Below are positions 3,494-30,662 of a stretch of DNA of 64,000 bases, in pieces (position 1 is the stretch's first letter; every line of letters begins with the position of its first letter). The position numbers and the translations under genes are program-made. Below the pieces are notes generated by a model. That model did no database searches. It was not told the origin of the DNA and saw nothing but the letters and a program-made list of their open reading frames with translations. The stretch spans positions 1,984,001 to 2,048,000 of the forward strand of contig NZ_CP015772.1 of the NCBI RefSeq assembly GCF_001654455.1, read 5' to 3'. Origin of the DNA: Niabella ginsenosidivorans. Lineage in GTDB: Bacteria; Bacteroidota; Bacteroidia; Chitinophagales; Chitinophagaceae.

Positions 3494-5371
3494 TTGACAA
3501 ACCTCATACCATTAAATATAACGGATACCGATATCCTCAAAGCCGTCCGGGACATCAACCCTTCTGCCATACCCCCAAGGCGGTTCTACACCAAGTATTA
3601 CCTGGTGGCAGATGGCAACAAATACCCGCCCAAATATGTGTTAAGCAACGCCAATCAATACGCCAACGGACTGGAACTGCCCCTCGATCTGTTCACTGCC
3701 CGGCAGGCGGTGGACTACTTAACCAAACTGGGTTTCCAGGTGGAAAAAAGGGAAGAAGTACCCAGTTATTTTGAAGAGCTGGAGCGCTTCCTGGAGCAGG
3801 CAAAAACAGAGGATCTCAAATACAGCAGTTATAATAAAAACTTCATTGGTTTGGAAGTACGGGTAAGTTTTGGACGGGCGCATAAGGCAAAAGTTCCCCG
3901 CATCGCATTTTTAAATAAAGCAAACAGCATCCAGGAATATATTTATCCTGCCTATTTTTTCTATGAGGAGCAGGGGTTATTGATACTGGCATACGGTGTT
4001 AATGAAACCCACGAACCACCCCATAACTGGGAGCTGCATAACCCTGTTACCATTTCAAAATATTTTGCAGAGCATGATTTGGGCAAGCCGCCTAATTATG
4101 GCAGTTCCTATGTGTATAAGGCGTATAATGCCAATAACCCGTTAAACCGGGATGAAATAGAAGAAGACTTGCTGGACATCATTGATATTTATAACGAAAT
4201 GCAGGAGGATACCGATATGCCTACCAACACCAACGAAACCGCGCAACAGGAATTCCGGCTATCTGCTTTTTTAGAAGCGCTCAATGCAACCGGGCTCAGC
4301 TTTCATCCTTCGCTGGTCACCCGGTTTGTAGGTTCTTTACTGGCCAAGCCCTTCGTCATCCTTACCGGGCTTTCGGGATCCGGGAAGACCAAACTGGCGC
4401 AGGCTTTTGTACAATGGATTTGTAAGAACGCGCAGCAATACAGCGTGGTGCCGGTAGGAGCCGACTGGACGAACCGGGAACCGCTGCTGGGCTATCCCAA
4501 CGCGCTGGACGCGCAGGACTATGTAAAGCCGGATAACGGCGCGCTGGATCTGCTGCTGAATGCCAATGCGCATCCCGCCCAGCCTTATTTCCTGATCCTG
4601 GATGAAATGAACCTCAGCCATGTGGAGCGCTACTTTGCAGACTTTCTCAGCGTTATGGAATCGCAGGAAGCCATTCCCCTGCATGCGGGTGGTGCCCAAA
4701 AAAGATCGGGTGTGCCTGCTGCTATCAAATGGCCATCGAATTTATTTATCATTGGTACGGTGAATATCGACGAAACCACCAATATGTTCAGCCCCAAAGT
4801 GCTGGACCGGGCCAATACCATTGAGTTCCGGGTAACGGAGCGGGAGATGGCGGCTTTTCTCAACAACCCGTTCGGCGCGGATAAACAACCGCTAAACGCT
4901 GCGGGTGCTTCCATGGCAGAAAGCTTTCTGAAACTGTCGGGCATCAAAGCCATCCCCAATGATCATGCAGACCGGCAGCTGATCAATACCACCCTTATCA
5001 GCTTTTTTAAAGAGCTCAAAAAAGCCGGGGCGGAGTTTGGCTACCGTACCGCTACGGAGATCCTGCAACTCATTAACCAACTAGAAGTAATAGATAGCAC
5101 ACTATCCCTGAATAAAAAGCTGGACATTGCCCTTATGCAAAAGCTATTGCCCAAGCTGCACGGATCGCGCCGCAGGCTAACGCCCGTGCTCAGCACTTTA
5201 GGATCGCTTTGTTTTAATGGCAACGGCAATATAGAGCATGAAGTTTTTGAAGCCACCGGTTTTGATTTTGAAAAAGACGACCGGGTATTATACCCCCTGT
5301 CGCTGGAAAAAATAACCCGCATGTATAAAGGCGCTATCGATAACGGGTTCACCAGTTTTGCCGAAGCATAG
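3494..5371 (+). CDS. McrB-like AAA+ GTPase of a type IV (modification-dependent) restriction system
   Basis: 625-aa motor subunit. Residues 10-82 match the head domain seen at the N-terminus of ScoMcrA-type enzymes (YLVADGNKYPPKYVLS, then TKLGFQVE). Residues about 90-235 resemble the MrcB N-terminal domain (DUF3578), a candidate reader of modified DNA. The AAA+ domain carries Walker A GLSGSGKTK at 292-300, Walker B FLILDEMNLSHVERY at 367-380 and GTVNIDETT at 421-429, the McrB-type sensor. McrB proteins use GTP to drive DNA translocation and activate their nuclease partner. The start is TTG: an in-frame stop lies seven codons upstream and the first internal ATG would remove most of the protein. 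The nuclease partner follows after 6 bases. Confidence 0.88.
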   Translation: MTNLIPLNITDTDILKAVRDINPSAIPPRRFYTKYYLVADGNKYPPKYVLSNANQYANGLELPLDLFTARQAVDYLTKLGFQVEKREEVPSYFEELERFLEQAKTEDLKYSSYNKNFIGLEVRVSFGRAHKAKVPRIAFLNKANSIQEYIYPAYFFYEEQGLLILAYGVNETHEPPHNWELHNPVTISKYFAEHDLGKPPNYGSSYVYKAYNANNPLNRDEIEEDLLDIIDIYNEMQEDTDMPTNTNETAQQEFRLSAFLEALNATGLSFHPSLVTRFVGSLLAKPFVILTGLSGSGKTKLAQAFVQWICKNAQQYSVVPVGADWTNREPLLGYPNALDAQDYVKPDNGALDLLLNANAHPAQPYFLILDEMNLSHVERYFADFLSVMESQEAIPLHAGGAQKRSGVPAAIKWPSNLFIIGTVNIDETTNMFSPKVLDRANTIEFRVTEREMAAFLNNPFGADKQPLNAAGASMAESFLKLSGIKAIPNDHADRQLINTTLISFFKELKKAGAEFGYRTATEILQLINQLEVIDSTLSLNKKLDIALMQKLLPKLHGSRRRLTPVLSTLGSLCFNGNGNIEHEVFEATGFDFEKDDRVLYPLSLEKITRMYKGAIDNGFTSFAEA

Positions 5372-19419: not shown

Positions 19420-20075
19420 TGCAGCTACCTGATAACTATATATTGATTGAGAAAGCGGTGAAGCATGCCCGTGTACAAGTGAATGAAAATAAATTGGTCA
19501 GAATTATTGTGCCACCATCATTCACCAAGGAAGATATTGTAGCATTAATTGAGAAAAAACAAAAGTGGATAGATAAGCATTTGCGCTTTTTTAGTCAAAT
19601 GTCAAAAATAGAATTGCAACGCAATCAGCTACTATTATATGGTAATCGATATGCTTATTTTTACGACACAACCTTTGAGCAAAAAGTAATTATCAATCAT
19701 GAGCATAAAACAATTCAGGCAAAAAGAAATCTTTTAGACATTCCTACACAAGAAAAATGGTTAAAAGGGGTTGCAAAAAAACATTTGACCCAAAGAATTG
19801 ATGAACTTTCCCATAAATTTGGTTTACAGTACAATAAATTTTATATACGAAATCAAAAAAAGAAATGGGGAAACTGTTCCGGAGAAAAAAATATTTCATT
19901 GAATTGGCGATTGATAAAAGCACCGTTATTTGTAATTGATTACCTGATTGTACATGAATTAGTTCATATATTAGTGATGAACCATACCCATAAATTTTGG
20001 ACCTTATTAAAATCTTATTATCCTGATTATCGTGATGCCATTAACTGGCTGGATAAATATGGGAATAGCTTATAG
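19419..20075 (+). CDS. YgjP/DUF45-like (SprT-type) zinc metallopeptidase in the type I operon
   Basis: 218 aa; the ATG overlaps the hsdR stop codon (TAATG), indicating translational coupling. The C-terminal half contains KKKWGNCSGEKNISLNWRLI followed by VIDYLIVHELVHILVMNHTH, with the HELVH zinc site and a downstream His in NHTHKFW, the hallmark of DUF45/YgjP metallopeptidases. The N-terminal half is a small beta-rich region. Genes of this family are often found at the end of type I restriction operons; a role in protein turnover of the restriction complex is conceivable but unproven. Confidence 0.88.
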   Translation: MQLPDNYILIEKAVKHARVQVNENKLVRIIVPPSFTKEDIVALIEKKQKWIDKHLRFFSQMSKIELQRNQLLLYGNRYAYFYDTTFEQKVIINHEHKTIQAKRNLLDIPTQEKWLKGVAKKHLTQRIDELSHKFGLQYNKFYIRNQKKKWGNCSGEKNISLNWRLIKAPLFVIDYLIVHELVHILVMNHTHKFWTLLKSYYPDYRDAINWLDKYGNSL

Positions 20076-20076
20076 T

Positions 20077-20952
20077 ATGAATAGTAATATTAATTTACTC
20101 AATATGCATGTTTTCGGAAAAACCATACGATTATTTTTAGTAGATGGCACGGCTAACGGGTTGACCACAGCCGAACTGAGCAACTGGACGGGTATAGGTA
20201 TCAAAGTGCCACGTATTAAAATTAAGGAATACAGCAACCGACCTGAGTTTCAAAAACCCGGTGTCTATATTTTGATCGGTAAAGGTGAAAATAATGAAGA
20301 TGCTGCCTATATAGGTGAAGCAGAAATAATAGCAGAACGTTTATCGGATCATATTAAAAATAAAGATTTCTGGAATGAAGTCATCTTCTTTGGCAGTAAA
20401 GATAAATATCTGAACAAAGCCAGTGTAAAATACTTGGAGAACAGATTGTATGACCTGGCATTGAAAGCAGGTCGCTTTTTTATTAATCAAAATATACCTA
20501 CTCGTTCAGAATTATCTGAGGCAGAACAAGCGGAACTTGAAGAGTTTTTAGCGAATATTAAAGTACTGACAGCAACTTTAGGACATCGTATATTCGAAGC
20601 ATTGGAAGAAACGGTAGATCATAAAGAAAGCCGACAACAAATTTTCTTCTGCAAAAACGGAGCCGGAGCTAATAGTAAAGGAAGCCCATCTACAGAAGGG
20701 TTTATCGTATATAAAGACTCTCTTTTAATGATAACAGAACAGCCATCACTTGCAGATGGTATCCGAATTGAAAGACAACAAATGCTATCTGAAGGAACAC
20801 TAATCATAGAGGGCGATTTTTACAAACTCACCAAAGATTACGTGTTCACATCCTCTTCCAGAGCTGCCGGAGCCACATTGGCAAGATCGGCCAGTGGCCC
20901 ATTAGAATGGAAAACTACCGATGGTGTTCAGTTAAAGCATTATGAATTGTAA
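20077..20952 (+). CDS. GIY-YIG nuclease-fold protein with DUF4357 domain
   Basis: 291 aa from ATG 20077, one base after the stop of the metallopeptidase gene. Residues about 60-150 form a GIY-YIG domain (GVYILIGKGENNEDAAYIGE, then RLSDHIKNKDFW and the acidic VKYLENRLYDLA). The C-terminal 100 residues (FFCKNGAGANSKGSPSTEGF, EGDFYKLTKDYVFTSSSRAA) match DUF4357. Proteins of this architecture are widespread in Bacteroidota and often sit in restriction-modification loci; they may act as accessory nucleases. GVY/YIG residues are present, so activity is possible. An ATG at 20104 is an alternative start. Confidence 0.85.
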   Translation: MNSNINLLNMHVFGKTIRLFLVDGTANGLTTAELSNWTGIGIKVPRIKIKEYSNRPEFQKPGVYILIGKGENNEDAAYIGEAEIIAERLSDHIKNKDFWNEVIFFGSKDKYLNKASVKYLENRLYDLALKAGRFFINQNIPTRSELSEAEQAELEEFLANIKVLTATLGHRIFEALEETVDHKESRQQIFFCKNGAGANSKGSPSTEGFIVYKDSLLMITEQPSLADGIRIERQQMLSEGTLIIEGDFYKLTKDYVFTSSSRAAGATLARSASGPLEWKTTDGVQLKHYEL

Positions 20953-24280: not shown

Positions 24281-26596
24281 TTATGCCTCTGACTCCATAG
24301 AAACCTCATGCCGCATCCATATCTCCTGCAATAATTTTTCAAAATGCTCCCTGCCCCCCGAAATATTTAAACTTAAAAATATTGTCTTTATCTCACTTTG
24401 TAATGCTGACTGTCTTTCTTTCAGTTGTTCAGTGGAAATTCCACTAAGGACCAGCCATAACACAAAAAAACGCATGGTCTTTCTTGCCGATTTTGTTTGC
24501 ATTAGGATATCAAGTCGCCTGTTTCTGAATGATTCTGTTGTTTTACCTTTAAGATTATCGGTCAGGTACATCACTTTTTGTATAAAATCTTTTTCAAAAT
24601 GATTTAAAGAGGAAAGAAACATCTCCTTATAATCTGCAGATTCCAATATTTCGGAAACGTGTGTTTTGTACTTTATCCGGATAACCATATGTGCATCATA
24701 TTCATAAAAATCCAGCACTTCCCGTATACGGTGCATATCCAGAGTACCTGTACCTAAGGAGAGATTGAGATAACATAAAAAAGTGATCATTTCCAGGTTT
24801 TGCATCCTGTTATCTTCTTTTTTCACGTAAAGCCAGGGATTGCGCTGGTAAATGCCTTTTATGTCATGAATTAAATTACCGTCTATATAAGCGTTCCAGA
24901 ACTCAAATGTGTGCTCTTTTATGGGCATAGGCTTGTGATTAAGTCTTTTATATAGCTCTTCGGGTTTAAAGCCGATATTATCTGATTCTTTGATCTCAAT
25001 AATATCAAGGTTGTAATTGCGTATCTTATTTTGCAGGATAAGAGGTAATTGACTAAACTTCTTTTTATTGACTCCCTGTAATAGCGGCCGGGCCAGGTTA
25101 AGCGTAAAATTGTTTTTGCGTGTGGTTATAAATTCACCTTGCTCTCCCAGGTATTGCTGGCCCAGAAAGCCGATCAGGGCCAGCAAGCGTTGTTGCCCGT
25201 CGATAACCTCTATTACTCCGCTTGCCCGCACAAATACATAGATTGGGGTTAGCATAAAACCCAACAGGATGCTTTCTATTAATGCAGAGGCTTTAGTGAC
25301 CGTCATTACTTCCATTCGCTGATAGGGAGGCTTGATGTTGAAATGCTTTCTGCCCATAAGATTAATAATATCACCTATAGTTAATGAAGTAGGAGTTGCC
25401 TGTGTTAACGGCTCGCCTTTTAATGTATGACCTAATTGTTTTTCTATGTACTGGTTGATCTGGTTGCGAAAATCAGTAGTATATTGTCTATCGGCTTTTA
25501 GATAGCTTGTAAAAGATAGTATAAGTTGAGAACTGAAGAATGTTGCCATTGAAAGATAGCTCTGGCGGATGGACTGCGCATAATTACTGCGATAATACGA
25601 ATAGGTTTGTGCATTTTTGGCAATATGATTTATTAATCTGGTTTTGAAGGTCTTGTTGTTGATCCGCCCAAATGCAATGCCTTCTTTTTCGGCAACAGCT
25701 ATGGCCCAGTAAATACAATCATATACAATCAAAGTATTGGTGAGATATGGGTATTCATGGCTTAGCATTTCTTTGATTTCAGTAAGAAAGTCAATGTTCC
25801 TTTTAAGCTTGGATAAAAGTTCTTTCAGGTAACCTTCCTTTTTGTCAATTATATGACAGGTATAATAATCGTAATACTTATTGATAATATCTTCCCGCTC
25901 TGCTATATATCGGTTTAAAGGTATATCCGCCAATACCAGAAGTTGCCGGAGGTGTTGCATCATTGTTTCAGTATTCTTTTTTTTGTATTGAAATACATCC
26001 TTCAGCTGGCCTTGTAGCTGTGTGTCATTTTCCAACTGCATTTTCAGGTATTTTGTAATTTCATCATGCAGATACTGCGCTTTATACACTTCTTCTTTCT
26101 TCAGAGCCGACATACCCATGTTATACCGTTTGAAGATTTCTTTTTTCAATGCTTCCTCCTCCTGATGCGTTAGGCCCTTTTCATCGTTCGGTTCGATAAT
26201 AATGCATCGCAGCTTGGTAAACAAAATCCGGTTTTTTAAATCATCTTCCAATTGCGAAAATGTTTTGCCAGACAGATACCAGAGTTTATCCAGGCCCTGA
26301 GGTTTTAAGCTGAATTTGTCGTTCAGGAAACGGTCTATTGTTTCGCAACGTTGCCTGCCATCGATCGCCTCCAGGCTATCATCGCTCTTCTTATACAATA
26401 TTACAGGCGGTGCATCTCCATGCCATAGGATCGTTTCTATAAAATTGGTAGCCTTTACATCGTTCCATACATATAGACGCTGGTAGGGCGGATCATATTT
26501 CAATTTGCGGTCACTTATGAACAGTGAATTGATGAGCTTAAATCTGTTGGCCATTTTAATTTTACGGAACAAATTTGCGAGTATTAAATTTTCCAT
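24281..26596 (-). CDS. Tandem DUF262 (GmrSD/ParB-like fold) protein
   Basis: 771 aa from ATG 26594-26596. Two DUF262 units are present: the first with PPYQRLYVWND near residue 36 and DGRQR at 79-83, the second with PPYQRMEV near 423 and DGQQR at 466-470. Each unit is followed by a similar helix set (EIFKRYNMGMSALKKEEVYK and ELYKRLNHKPMPIKEHTFEF). DUF262 is the nucleotidase half of GmrS/SspE-type restriction enzymes, where DGQQR is the active motif; the HNH nuclease half (DUF1524) is absent here, and the last 180 residues match nothing I know. It starts 19 bases after the sigma-like gene, so they are one operon. A TTG start at 26641 would overlap that gene. Probable defence protein; function inferred. 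Confidence 0.75.
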   Translation of the reverse strand: MENLILANLFRKIKMANRFKLINSLFISDRKLKYDPPYQRLYVWNDVKATNFIETILWHGDAPPVILYKKSDDSLEAIDGRQRCETIDRFLNDKFSLKPQGLDKLWYLSGKTFSQLEDDLKNRILFTKLRCIIIEPNDEKGLTHQEEEALKKEIFKRYNMGMSALKKEEVYKAQYLHDEITKYLKMQLENDTQLQGQLKDVFQYKKKNTETMMQHLRQLLVLADIPLNRYIAEREDIINKYYDYYTCHIIDKKEGYLKELLSKLKRNIDFLTEIKEMLSHEYPYLTNTLIVYDCIYWAIAVAEKEGIAFGRINNKTFKTRLINHIAKNAQTYSYYRSNYAQSIRQSYLSMATFFSSQLILSFTSYLKADRQYTTDFRNQINQYIEKQLGHTLKGEPLTQATPTSLTIGDIINLMGRKHFNIKPPYQRMEVMTVTKASALIESILLGFMLTPIYVFVRASGVIEVIDGQQRLLALIGFLGQQYLGEQGEFITTRKNNFTLNLARPLLQGVNKKKFSQLPLILQNKIRNYNLDIIEIKESDNIGFKPEELYKRLNHKPMPIKEHTFEFWNAYIDGNLIHDIKGIYQRNPWLYVKKEDNRMQNLEMITFLCYLNLSLGTGTLDMHRIREVLDFYEYDAHMVIRIKYKTHVSEILESADYKEMFLSSLNHFEKDFIQKVMYLTDNLKGKTTESFRNRRLDILMQTKSARKTMRFFVLWLVLSGISTEQLKERQSALQSEIKTIFLSLNISGGREHFEKLLQEIWMRHEVSMESEA

Positions 26597-26615
26597 ATAG
26601 GGATTGTTTTTGTGC

Positions 26616-27401
26616 TTAGATAATTTGAGGCTTATTTGCAATTACTTGTTTTATATAGGCATGTTGCTTTTGAAGCTGAAATAGGCTCAAGTTGAGCAGA
26701 TCAGCTATTTGCTGCAGGCTACAGGTTCTCTCGTAATAAAGGCTGAATATTTGGGCTTGCTGGCTATTCAGGTACACTTTATAATCAGATAGTTCGAGTT
26801 GAGGACGTCTGGCAGTTACGATGGCCGCTTTTTCCAGTCGGTATTGTATGCGTTTTAAATATGCAATACTTTTTCTTATTTCCGAAACTATATATTGGCT
26901 TGAAGTATATTGCATCTGGGCGATACGATCAGGACTAAGACCTTTTTTCCATAGATTTACTACTATTTCCATATCTCGGGGCAAACAAGTTATAGCCTGC
27001 TCCAATAGCTCCTCTCGTGTCTGCATATGTTGGTGCTGTTCTATTACGGCAGCACTATCGTATGTTTCCATCAATTGATATTCGTATGGCTCCAATGCTA
27101 CAGTCTGTTGTTTTTTGAGCTTCCGGATGGCACCGTAACATAGCCATCTTATTTGTTGCCTGATATAATAAAACAAGTGTGTCGTATTATTAATATCACT
27201 TCTATGTGCCCACACATTCAGGAAAGCATCCTGAATAACAGTCCTTATTTCGAAGTCATCCGCCAGAATTTTTTTAGCATGTATAGACATTTCCTCATGC
27301 CACAGCTTCATAAAATACTGTAGTCCTTTTTCATTACCCTGCATAAAGAACAGGAAGTATTTATCGTCATCGCCTTCACTTGGCGAAGTTTGTTTACTCA
27401 T
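26616..27401 (-). CDS. Sigma-70-like (ECF/FecI-type) protein with an extra C-terminal helix-turn-helix
   Basis: 261 aa. Residues about 22-95 resemble sigma region 2 of Bacteroidota ECF factors (YFMKLWHEEMSIHAKKILAD, IQDAFLNVWAHRSDI, LFYYIRQQIRWLCYGAIRKL). Residues about 133-190 fit region 4 (CLPRDMEIVVNLWKKGLSPD then RIAQMQYTSS). A further region-4-like helix-turn-helix follows at about 205-255 (QIFSLYYERTCSLQQIADLL). ECF factors normally stop after one region 4, at about 190 aa. It heads an operon with the tandem DUF262 gene and has no anti-sigma gene next to it. It may direct transcription of the operon or have been recruited as a DNA-binding or RNA-polymerase-binding partner. Confidence 0.65.
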   Translation of the reverse strand: MSKQTSPSEGDDDKYFLFFMQGNEKGLQYFMKLWHEEMSIHAKKILADDFEIRTVIQDAFLNVWAHRSDINNTTHLFYYIRQQIRWLCYGAIRKLKKQQTVALEPYEYQLMETYDSAAVIEQHQHMQTREELLEQAITCLPRDMEIVVNLWKKGLSPDRIAQMQYTSSQYIVSEIRKSIAYLKRIQYRLEKAAIVTARRPQLELSDYKVYLNSQQAQIFSLYYERTCSLQQIADLLNLSLFQLQKQHAYIKQVIANKPQII

Positions 27402-28363: not shown

Positions 28364-30533
28364 TTATTTATTCAGCTTCTCCAATAAAGCCACGTCTTCT
28401 TTCCAGTATTTCATCTGACGCTGATATGCTGCCTGGGTCTTCGTGATCCGCAGCGTGTGTGGCGACCCTTTTTTTATCGTTTCTGTTTTTAAATCGATCG
28501 TTACCCGGTCAATGGCATCCTCTAATGCCGCTCTTTCGCTCTGGTTTTTCCGGTAATCGAAAACCTGTTCTGTTGGTGATTCTAAAAAGGCTTTTAAGAT
28601 CTGCCACACCCCGGAGTTATGAGCCCCTACGGGCAGCGGCCGGCTCCAGTTGGGTAGCGGCTGTGGTTGTTGATCGGCTCTTTGCTGCAAATAATCCCGG
28701 CTGGATTGGCGCAGTCTGTTCGCAAGTTCCGAACTGTCTTTTACACTTAGCACTAAGGGCACTAAAATCTTGTGCACATATGACCGCCGAAGATCTTTTG
28801 TAAGAATGGCAGCCATTTCCTGCATCCACTTTGCAGCAGGAGCTGCATTTTTTGTAAACCAAAACAAATAGCCGAGCGTTTGGGAGTTTACCCGGTCTGC
28901 CGTTTGATGATAGACTGATTCGAAATAGTGCGGCAGTTTATCTATCTGCGTTGCTGCAATGTTGTGCAACCGCTTATCAGCGGTCATTTCCCGTAACAAG
29001 GCAACCAATTGTTCCAGTAAAGGAAGGGTGATGGTTTCCGTAAGCTTTTCAAAAAATTGGGTCGTTATACCAGGAGATAAGCTGCTCAAAACAATTACCC
29101 ATTTCGCTGCGTCGATCTTTACAAAATACGATTGCAGGAGCGTGGTATTTAATTGCAGCAGTAAGTCTTTATCGTTCCTGTTGATCAGCCAGTCTGCGAT
29201 GGCATTATAATTTGCTTCTTTTTCAGTCCGGTGGTTACTGTTTAGTCCTGTTGATAGCATAAACTCCATCATGGTAGCTTCAGCGTCTGAAATCTGTTTC
29301 GTAGGGGTGAAATAACTGATCCAGTTCAACTGGCTCGTTGCGCTTTGTGTCAGCAGCAGGCGGGCATTTACATCAGGTGACCAGATCATTACTGCGCCAT
29401 AATGGTACCAATGCATCAGGTCCGGACCATAATTACCCATATACCCGGTTGATTCTTTTATGATGGGTTCCCCCTTATCCAATGCAAACGATGTGATCAG
29501 CTCATCTTCTTCAAAGGGTACCTCATCCGGCACCGGCACATCACTTTTAGCCCAATGCTCAATATGAAGCGATTCGTCATATACTTCCTCCATCACGGCA
29601 TCACTATCGTCTGTTTCCTCGTTGTAGTCTTAATAACCACTATAAGCCGGAGCGCCCGAAAGATAGGAGGTTACCAGGCACAACCTGGCATAGTAGCCTG
29701 CTTTTTGAGCAGCCAGCAGCAAGGCTTCTGCTTTAGCACGATCGTTGAGCTTGAGGGCGTCATAAGAAAAGTTTCCGGGGGTATATTGGTGCCCTGGTAA
29801 AACAATAGCCGGCCGGGCAGCTTCCTGTGCCTGGTGAGCAATCAATAGTTCTGCCAATTGGGCGGCATGTGTTTGTATGGATTGCAGCGCTATTTTTTTG
29901 CCTGCTTTCTCCTGTACAAGATTATATACCAAACAGACCCTGTAGCCGGTGCTAAGCGGCTTTACCTCATGGTCGCAATCCGCATAAAAAGCAGCATAAT
30001 TGATAGCGTAAGGGTCAGTGCTTCGGGCAAAATCGGCTACCTCTGTTATCCCCTCAAAATGAATGACCAGTTCTCCACCGGTATAGGAAGAGGGAAGCCC
30101 TATGACCAGGGTACCAAACATGTCCTTTTCTTTCTCCGTGTCCTTATGAGGCAGGAAAAATCACTTTCTTTATAAATAAGTAATTTGTAAAAATGCGCCG
30201 CAATGGAATAATCTTCCAGACCCAGATCCGCTTTTACAGAGGAGAGGATCCGCTGCATCAACTTTTCCCATGCGGGATTTTTTTAAGCGATTTTAGCAGC
30301 ATCTATTTCCTGTGCGCTTCTGATCTTATCGTCGTAGATGGTATGCCGGCCCTGGCCAAAAGTGCTTTCTGCGCCACCTGCATCAATGCCTGCGCCTGGA
30401 TCCCGTTTACCGGGAAGGCAACTTCTCCCATATCCTCCACAGTTAACCCGGGAAAGACAAAATCGGCAGCGCCAATACTGGCAAACCGGCCGCTGCCTTT
30501 TAATTGCAGAAGCGTTTCAAGTATGTTTTGCAT
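28364..30533 (-). pseudogene. Large 2OG-Fe(II) oxygenase-like gene broken by two frameshifts and one stop
   Basis: Read leftward from about 30533 (MQNILETLLQLKGSGRFASI). Coding shifts frame near 30358, where one C is missing from what should read QKAPFGQGRHTIYDD, and again near 30157, where one T is missing before LPHKDTEKEKD. The 2OG-Fe(II) core is clear: the HxD-type PHKDTEK, FGTLVIGLPSSYTGGELVIH, and the distal YADCDHEVKPLSTGYRVCLV with the His and Arg that bind iron and 2-oxoglutarate. A TAA at 29630-29632 then interrupts the frame after PAYSGY, but the remaining 420 codons stay open to 28364. Intact relatives should be about 720 aa; the C-terminal domain is of unknown function. Three lesions make loss of function likely. 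Confidence 0.8.
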
Positions 30534-30662
30534 AGAAACAAGCATGTAAATACTGTTGCGCGATTTAGCCCATAAATCCTGAAATAACAGCACAATGACA
30601 GTCAAGGTCTTTTATGGTGCAGATGGATATTGCGGAAAGGAGCCTGGATAATAAAAACAGTC

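Follow-up and report, generated by a model that had tools for sequence, protein, structure and literature searches.

A sigma factor gene paired with a tandem DUF262 gene in Niabella ginsenosidivorans, from a family whose members mostly adjoin Cas12f

The sigma-DUF262 locus

The window, which is the whole stretch of DNA analysed here (64,000 nucleotides of Niabella ginsenosidivorans, GCF_001654455.1, NZ_CP015772.1:1,984,001-2,048,000, forward strand), carries on its minus strand the gene of a sigma factor of the extracytoplasmic function (ECF) type (26616..27401), followed 19 bp downstream on the same strand by the gene of a protein with two DUF262 (GmrSD_N) units (24281..26596). The DUF262 protein has 771 amino acids when read from an ATG and 786 if an upstream TTG is the start. 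The coordinates of the open reading frames (ORFs) agree with the original prediction for this DNA, which had described a 261-amino-acid sigma-like protein, a 19-base gap (26597..26615) and a 771-amino-acid protein. The immediate neighbours of the DUF262 gene are the sigma gene and ParDE.

The NCBIfam model sigma70-ECF matches residues 35-183 of the sigma factor (E 1.1e-13, above the cut-off), and Pfam Sigma70_r4 matches only residues 211-240 (E 1.2e-4, below the cut-off). In an AlphaFold model (mean predicted local distance difference test score 75.0, predicted template modelling score 0.40) helices are seen for region 2 (residues 9-100; 27102..27377, minus strand) and for two region-4-like parts (residues 129-195, 26817..27017, minus strand, and residues 213-256), which bears out the three units proposed earlier. 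In fold searches region 2 resembles structures of sigma-E region 2, and the first region-4-like domain is also backed by such matches. The second, a C-terminal domain of three helices (residues 203-258; 26628..26795, minus strand), is common to dCas12f-linked sigma factors. C-terminal extensions are known in many ECF groups, according to the available text of PMC8999054. The sigma factor has a single PDB sequence match at E ≤ 0.01, to the sigma factor (RpoE chain) of the dCas12f complex 9n9q, and this chain also ranks first among its fold matches; a sigma factor of the 9n9q_C type, C-terminal extension included, is thus present in the window.

Pfam GmrSD_N matches two stretches of the 771-amino-acid protein (E 1.6e-23). 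A motif search located IDGRQR from residue 78 and IDGQQR from residue 465, so that the DGRQR of the first unit (residues 79-83; 26348..26362, minus strand) and the DGQQR of the second (residues 466-470; 25187..25201, minus strand) lie where two complete units had been predicted. The nuclease half was likewise correctly described as absent: no Pfam match to HNH or DUF1524 was obtained in this protein at E ≤ 1, and no such nuclease is encoded in the adjacent genes (sigma, ParDE) either. The PADLOC models NsnA (E 2.5e-49), REase_II and PD-T4-2_A (E 4.9e-10) match the protein; no explanation of the name NsnA was found in the open-licence literature.

One sigma factor family beside Cas12f or DUF262

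Relatives of the sigma factor were sought in 394 genomes of the family and 316 of the phylum Bacteroidota, using a profile of eight sigma factors; the genomes searched included those of its own members. Nine proteins of the family genomes matched at E ≤ 1.9e-81, namely the eight profile members and G946; four weaker matches, to generic ECF sigma factors (3.3e-28 to 3.8e-26), stop near position 190 of 265 and hence lack the extension. The phylum genomes added G344 (1.2e-54) and G336 (8.8e-36, the first ORF of a split gene). In a tree with 16 generic ECF sigma factors picked from the search matches, the 11 extended ones formed a single group (support 100/100; 99/100 when only the 180 columns present in almost all sequences were used), G336 being represented by its N-terminal ORF. 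The sigma factor of the window belongs to this family of ECF sigma factors with an additional region-4-like C-terminal domain.

The gene following the extended sigma gene encodes Cas12f in eight of the 11 sampled cases, including G946, G344 and G336, and a tandem DUF262 protein in the other three (the window, G191 and G203). The Cas12f of one locus (G671) is cut by the contig end, and the extended sigma gene beside Cas12f in G336 is split over two ORFs (L201:7343-8159, minus strand). The three DUF262-linked sigma factors (82/89; core columns 56/81) are weakly separated from the eight Cas12f-linked ones (79/64; 71/68). Beside one sigma factor family, Cas12f and DUF262 have been exchanged, in one direction or the other, and the sigma-DUF262 gene pair is a repeated one. 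The two partners are unrelated proteins of nuclease descent, a deactivated Cas12f and a nuclease-less DUF262 protein. No Cas12f match at E ≤ 0.01 was found in the whole genome from which the window comes, using one query and no positive control; an Rfam search of the window gave no hit at or above the gathering score; and the upstream regions of the three sigma-DUF262 loci have no 8-mer in common.

Like the sigma factors of FecI/FecR-type ECF systems, the one in the window has regions 2 and 4, but it differs from them in its extra domain, its separate clade and the absence of FecR next to it. A FecR gene follows all five generic ECF sigma genes checked (L060, L202-L205) and none of the 11 extended ones. 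These differences rule out an ordinary FecI-type sigma factor. The succession of sigma factor and anti-sigma FecR in the generic systems also bears on the main rival explanation, in which the DUF262 protein would be an anti-sigma-like cytoplasmic sensor and a nucleotide signal, or modified or foreign DNA, would free the sigma factor for promoters of its own. DUF262 units have been described as nucleotide-responsive switches (PMC13251355, PMC10952713, as far as the available text goes), which is consistent with such a sensor. On the other hand, most partners in this sigma family are Cas12f, one member has been solved in an RNA-guided transcription complex, and no FecR-like domain was matched in the DUF262 protein, so that the sensor explanation is considered doubtful.

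Recurrence and relatives of the DUF262 partner

Full-length relatives of the DUF262 protein were sought in 248 genomes of the order, 395 of the phylum and 394 of the family. Among the order genomes they were present in that of the window, G191 and G203; the phylum genomes yielded five more with 32-35 % identity (G432, G504, G276, G512, G447), and the family genomes added G891, G800, G732 and G856 as well as a fragment in G846. In the DUF262 tree, in which G203 is represented by its second ORF and from which distant relatives such as L078 were left out, the sigma-linked proteins form one clade, and the sigma gene lies directly upstream in all three genomes carrying this clade. Among the loci read, G191 and G203 (both of genus code g19) alone have the same gene order and orientation as the window, at protein identities of 44 and 45 %; the two genes are 75 bp apart in G191 and 21 bp apart in G203. 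As the order recurs in two other genomes at such identities, the pairing goes beyond chance, and the adjacency on which the original prediction depended is that of a repeated unit.

A wider scan of a genome collection used two peptide patterns, and 80 of 199 relatives were kept, so further sigma-linked copies may exist; the top two loci were again G191 and G203, and the others lacked an extended sigma gene. Among 137 loci (L047-L183), 124 with a tandem-DUF262 profile match, an extended sigma gene was present only in L047/L074 and L048/L073, which are two genomes represented twice each, and DUF262 as such was therefore rejected as the sigma partner. In L080 a weak sigma match (9.5e-8) lies about 4 kb from the DUF262 gene. 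G846 retains a DUF262 fragment of 110 amino acids, 62 % identical and interrupted by two stops, and the sequences on either side of it match both flanks of the window locus. The sigma-DUF262 pair is thus a real and repeated but rare unit, known from three genomes and one relict. In the open-licence literature, judged by titles and the beginnings of abstracts, no published account of it was found.

The site of the pair is variable within the genus: in G900 the two genes that flank it enclose different genes, G922, G810 and G943 have retained only one of the two, and G876 and G704 have no match to that one. Mobility was considered and not adopted: 77 plasmid and 15 phage records match the DUF262 protein, none of them covering 80 % of it. 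When viral contigs were searched for sigma relatives using exact peptide patterns taken from the single protein, none was found.

The DUF262 frame of G203 (L048:7809-10124, minus strand) has a single in-frame TAA ahead of the second unit, which makes it a pseudogene, an assembly error or a natural split. This stop codon, the G846 relict and the rarity of the pair would suit an explanation in which the two genes are mere neighbours or a decaying remnant without joint function. Such an explanation is very unlikely in view of the same order and orientation in three of three genomes from two genera, at about 44 % identity, with differing neighbours and conserved motifs.

Tandem DUF262 occurs at other loci too: 12 further full-length tandem relatives were collected. 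Seven of these carry a C-terminal HNH nuclease, which the sigma-linked proteins lack (in L070 and L153 HNH was looked for by motif search and not with Pfam). The tandem-DUF262-HNH proteins (for example L050-L053, L071, L075, L076) share 30-33 % identity with the present protein across both units and, unlike it, have no extended sigma gene as neighbour. The DUF262 motifs are intact in the relatives as well. The claim that DUF262 normally occurs once, together with a nuclease half, was too strong in the light of these tandem proteins and of PD-T4-2, Menshen and Dazbog, in which DUF262 is already known without DUF1524 (PMC10952713, available text). The present protein resembles those three in lacking the usual nuclease half, but no sigma partner is described for them in that text. 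Compared with GmrSD, BrxU and SspE, it shares DUF262 with the DGxQR nucleotide motif and differs in carrying two units on a single chain, in lacking a DUF1524/HNH nuclease and in having a sigma partner.

Several of the sigma-less tandem relatives have partners of other kinds. A RecF/SMC-like ATPase is encoded beside L068 and perhaps L069 and L070, an OLD-like TOPRIM ATPase beside L071 and a PIN_8 protein beside L049, and L051 itself is fused to DUF4379 zinc domains and HNH. With their differing partners, these proteins are possibly a set of related modules.

Proposed function and the defence question

PDB entry 9n9q, titled RNA-guided transcription complex and released only in December 2025, holds dCas12f together with the homologous sigma factor; dCas12f is also present in 9n9c, 9n9m and 9n9o. 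This complex reportedly loads RNA polymerase at sites set by its guide and without promoter motifs, and dCas12f-type proteins are said to activate genes. The present pair resembles it in the sigma factor, C-terminal domain included, and in the order of a sigma factor followed by a DNA-targeting protein of nuclease descent. It differs in that the partner is a tandem DUF262 protein with no known guide RNA, and its mechanism is proposed by analogy. The position of dCas12f appears to be taken by a DNA sensor of restriction type without a nuclease, and on the simplest reading it would do dCas12f's job. We give an even chance to the explanation that sigma factor and DUF262 protein together form a transcription activator, in which the DUF262 protein would guide the sigma factor and RNA polymerase to DNA. 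Action through RNA polymerase, as had been proposed, fits this explanation.

From the comparison we infer a physical complex, recruitment, a switch driven by nucleoside triphosphates (NTPs), a DNA mark of some nature and target genes. The DUF262 protein, akin to nuclease-bearing sensors of the GmrSD/SspE type, would replace dCas12f as the DNA finder. The site it finds would most likely be modified or otherwise marked, because the DUF262 enzymes SspE, BrxU and GmrSD respond to such DNA. The NTP-dependent conformational change that in SspE releases the HNH nuclease might here present the sigma factor, RNA polymerase would be loaded, and the transcription start would be set by the bound protein instead of by promoter motifs. 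In its specific form, with two NTP-fuelled DUF262 units reading a DNA mark or feature and loading a dedicated sigma factor with RNA polymerase, such modification-guided transcription is tentatively put forward as a possibility.

If so, evolution would have joined the extended sigma factor on at least two occasions to a DNA finder of nuclease origin, in one case RNA-guided (dCas12f) and in another protein-guided (DUF262). That one branch of the family is tied to a restriction-type sensor suggests a plug-in sigma factor that unrelated DNA-binding proteins can steer, and a partner that reads DNA modification would connect a DNA mark directly to the start of transcription in bacteria. The two unrelated partners also allow the role of the sigma C-terminal domain to be tested by comparison.

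The original prediction had seen a defence module in the pair. As an anti-phage module, the DUF262 protein would recognise invading modified DNA and the sigma factor would either load RNA polymerase so as to disturb phage transcription or activate a gene for defence or suicide. Consistent with this are the PADLOC matches of the DUF262 protein, the HNH domains and the OLD-like, SMC/RecF-like and PIN neighbours of its tandem relatives, and the presence in the window of a type I restriction-modification system, 5 kb from the pair, and of a PDC-S14 match. The proposed setting held for type I restriction and for the adjacent ParDE, but a separate type IV restriction gene was not found among the window genes scanned. 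Among five neighbours scanned in each of the other genomes, G203 has AbiEi near the pair, while those of G191 include genes for an amine oxidase, GNAT and a hydrolase, none of the five being defence-like; no gene is common to the two sets. With a variable site and mixed neighbours, a defence island is not the rule, and because the neighbours scanned are not the same in the three copies, a defence module by island context was not kept as the main explanation. The other partners in the sigma family, moreover, are dCas12f-type proteins, which reportedly activate genes, and the anti-phage module is regarded as unlikely. The defence interpretation is replaced by that of a transcription activator, with which the pair adds to the sigma-coupled, nuclease-derived transcription systems.

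Three further observations concern the surroundings of the pair. The PDC-S14 match (PADLOC, E 7.2e-105) is a GIY-YIG/DUF4357 protein encoded at 20032-20952 (plus strand), behind the type I restriction-modification operon and a gene for a YgjP-like metallopeptidase. A gene at 3494-5371 (plus strand) matches the PADLOC candidate PDC-M26A (E 1.1e-47). At 28364-30605 (minus strand), three ORFs of 410, 163 and 100 amino acids align to an intact G846 gene (L072:5768-8008) for a protein of 746 amino acids with a weak 2OG-Fe(II)-oxygenase match, of which the window holds a broken copy.
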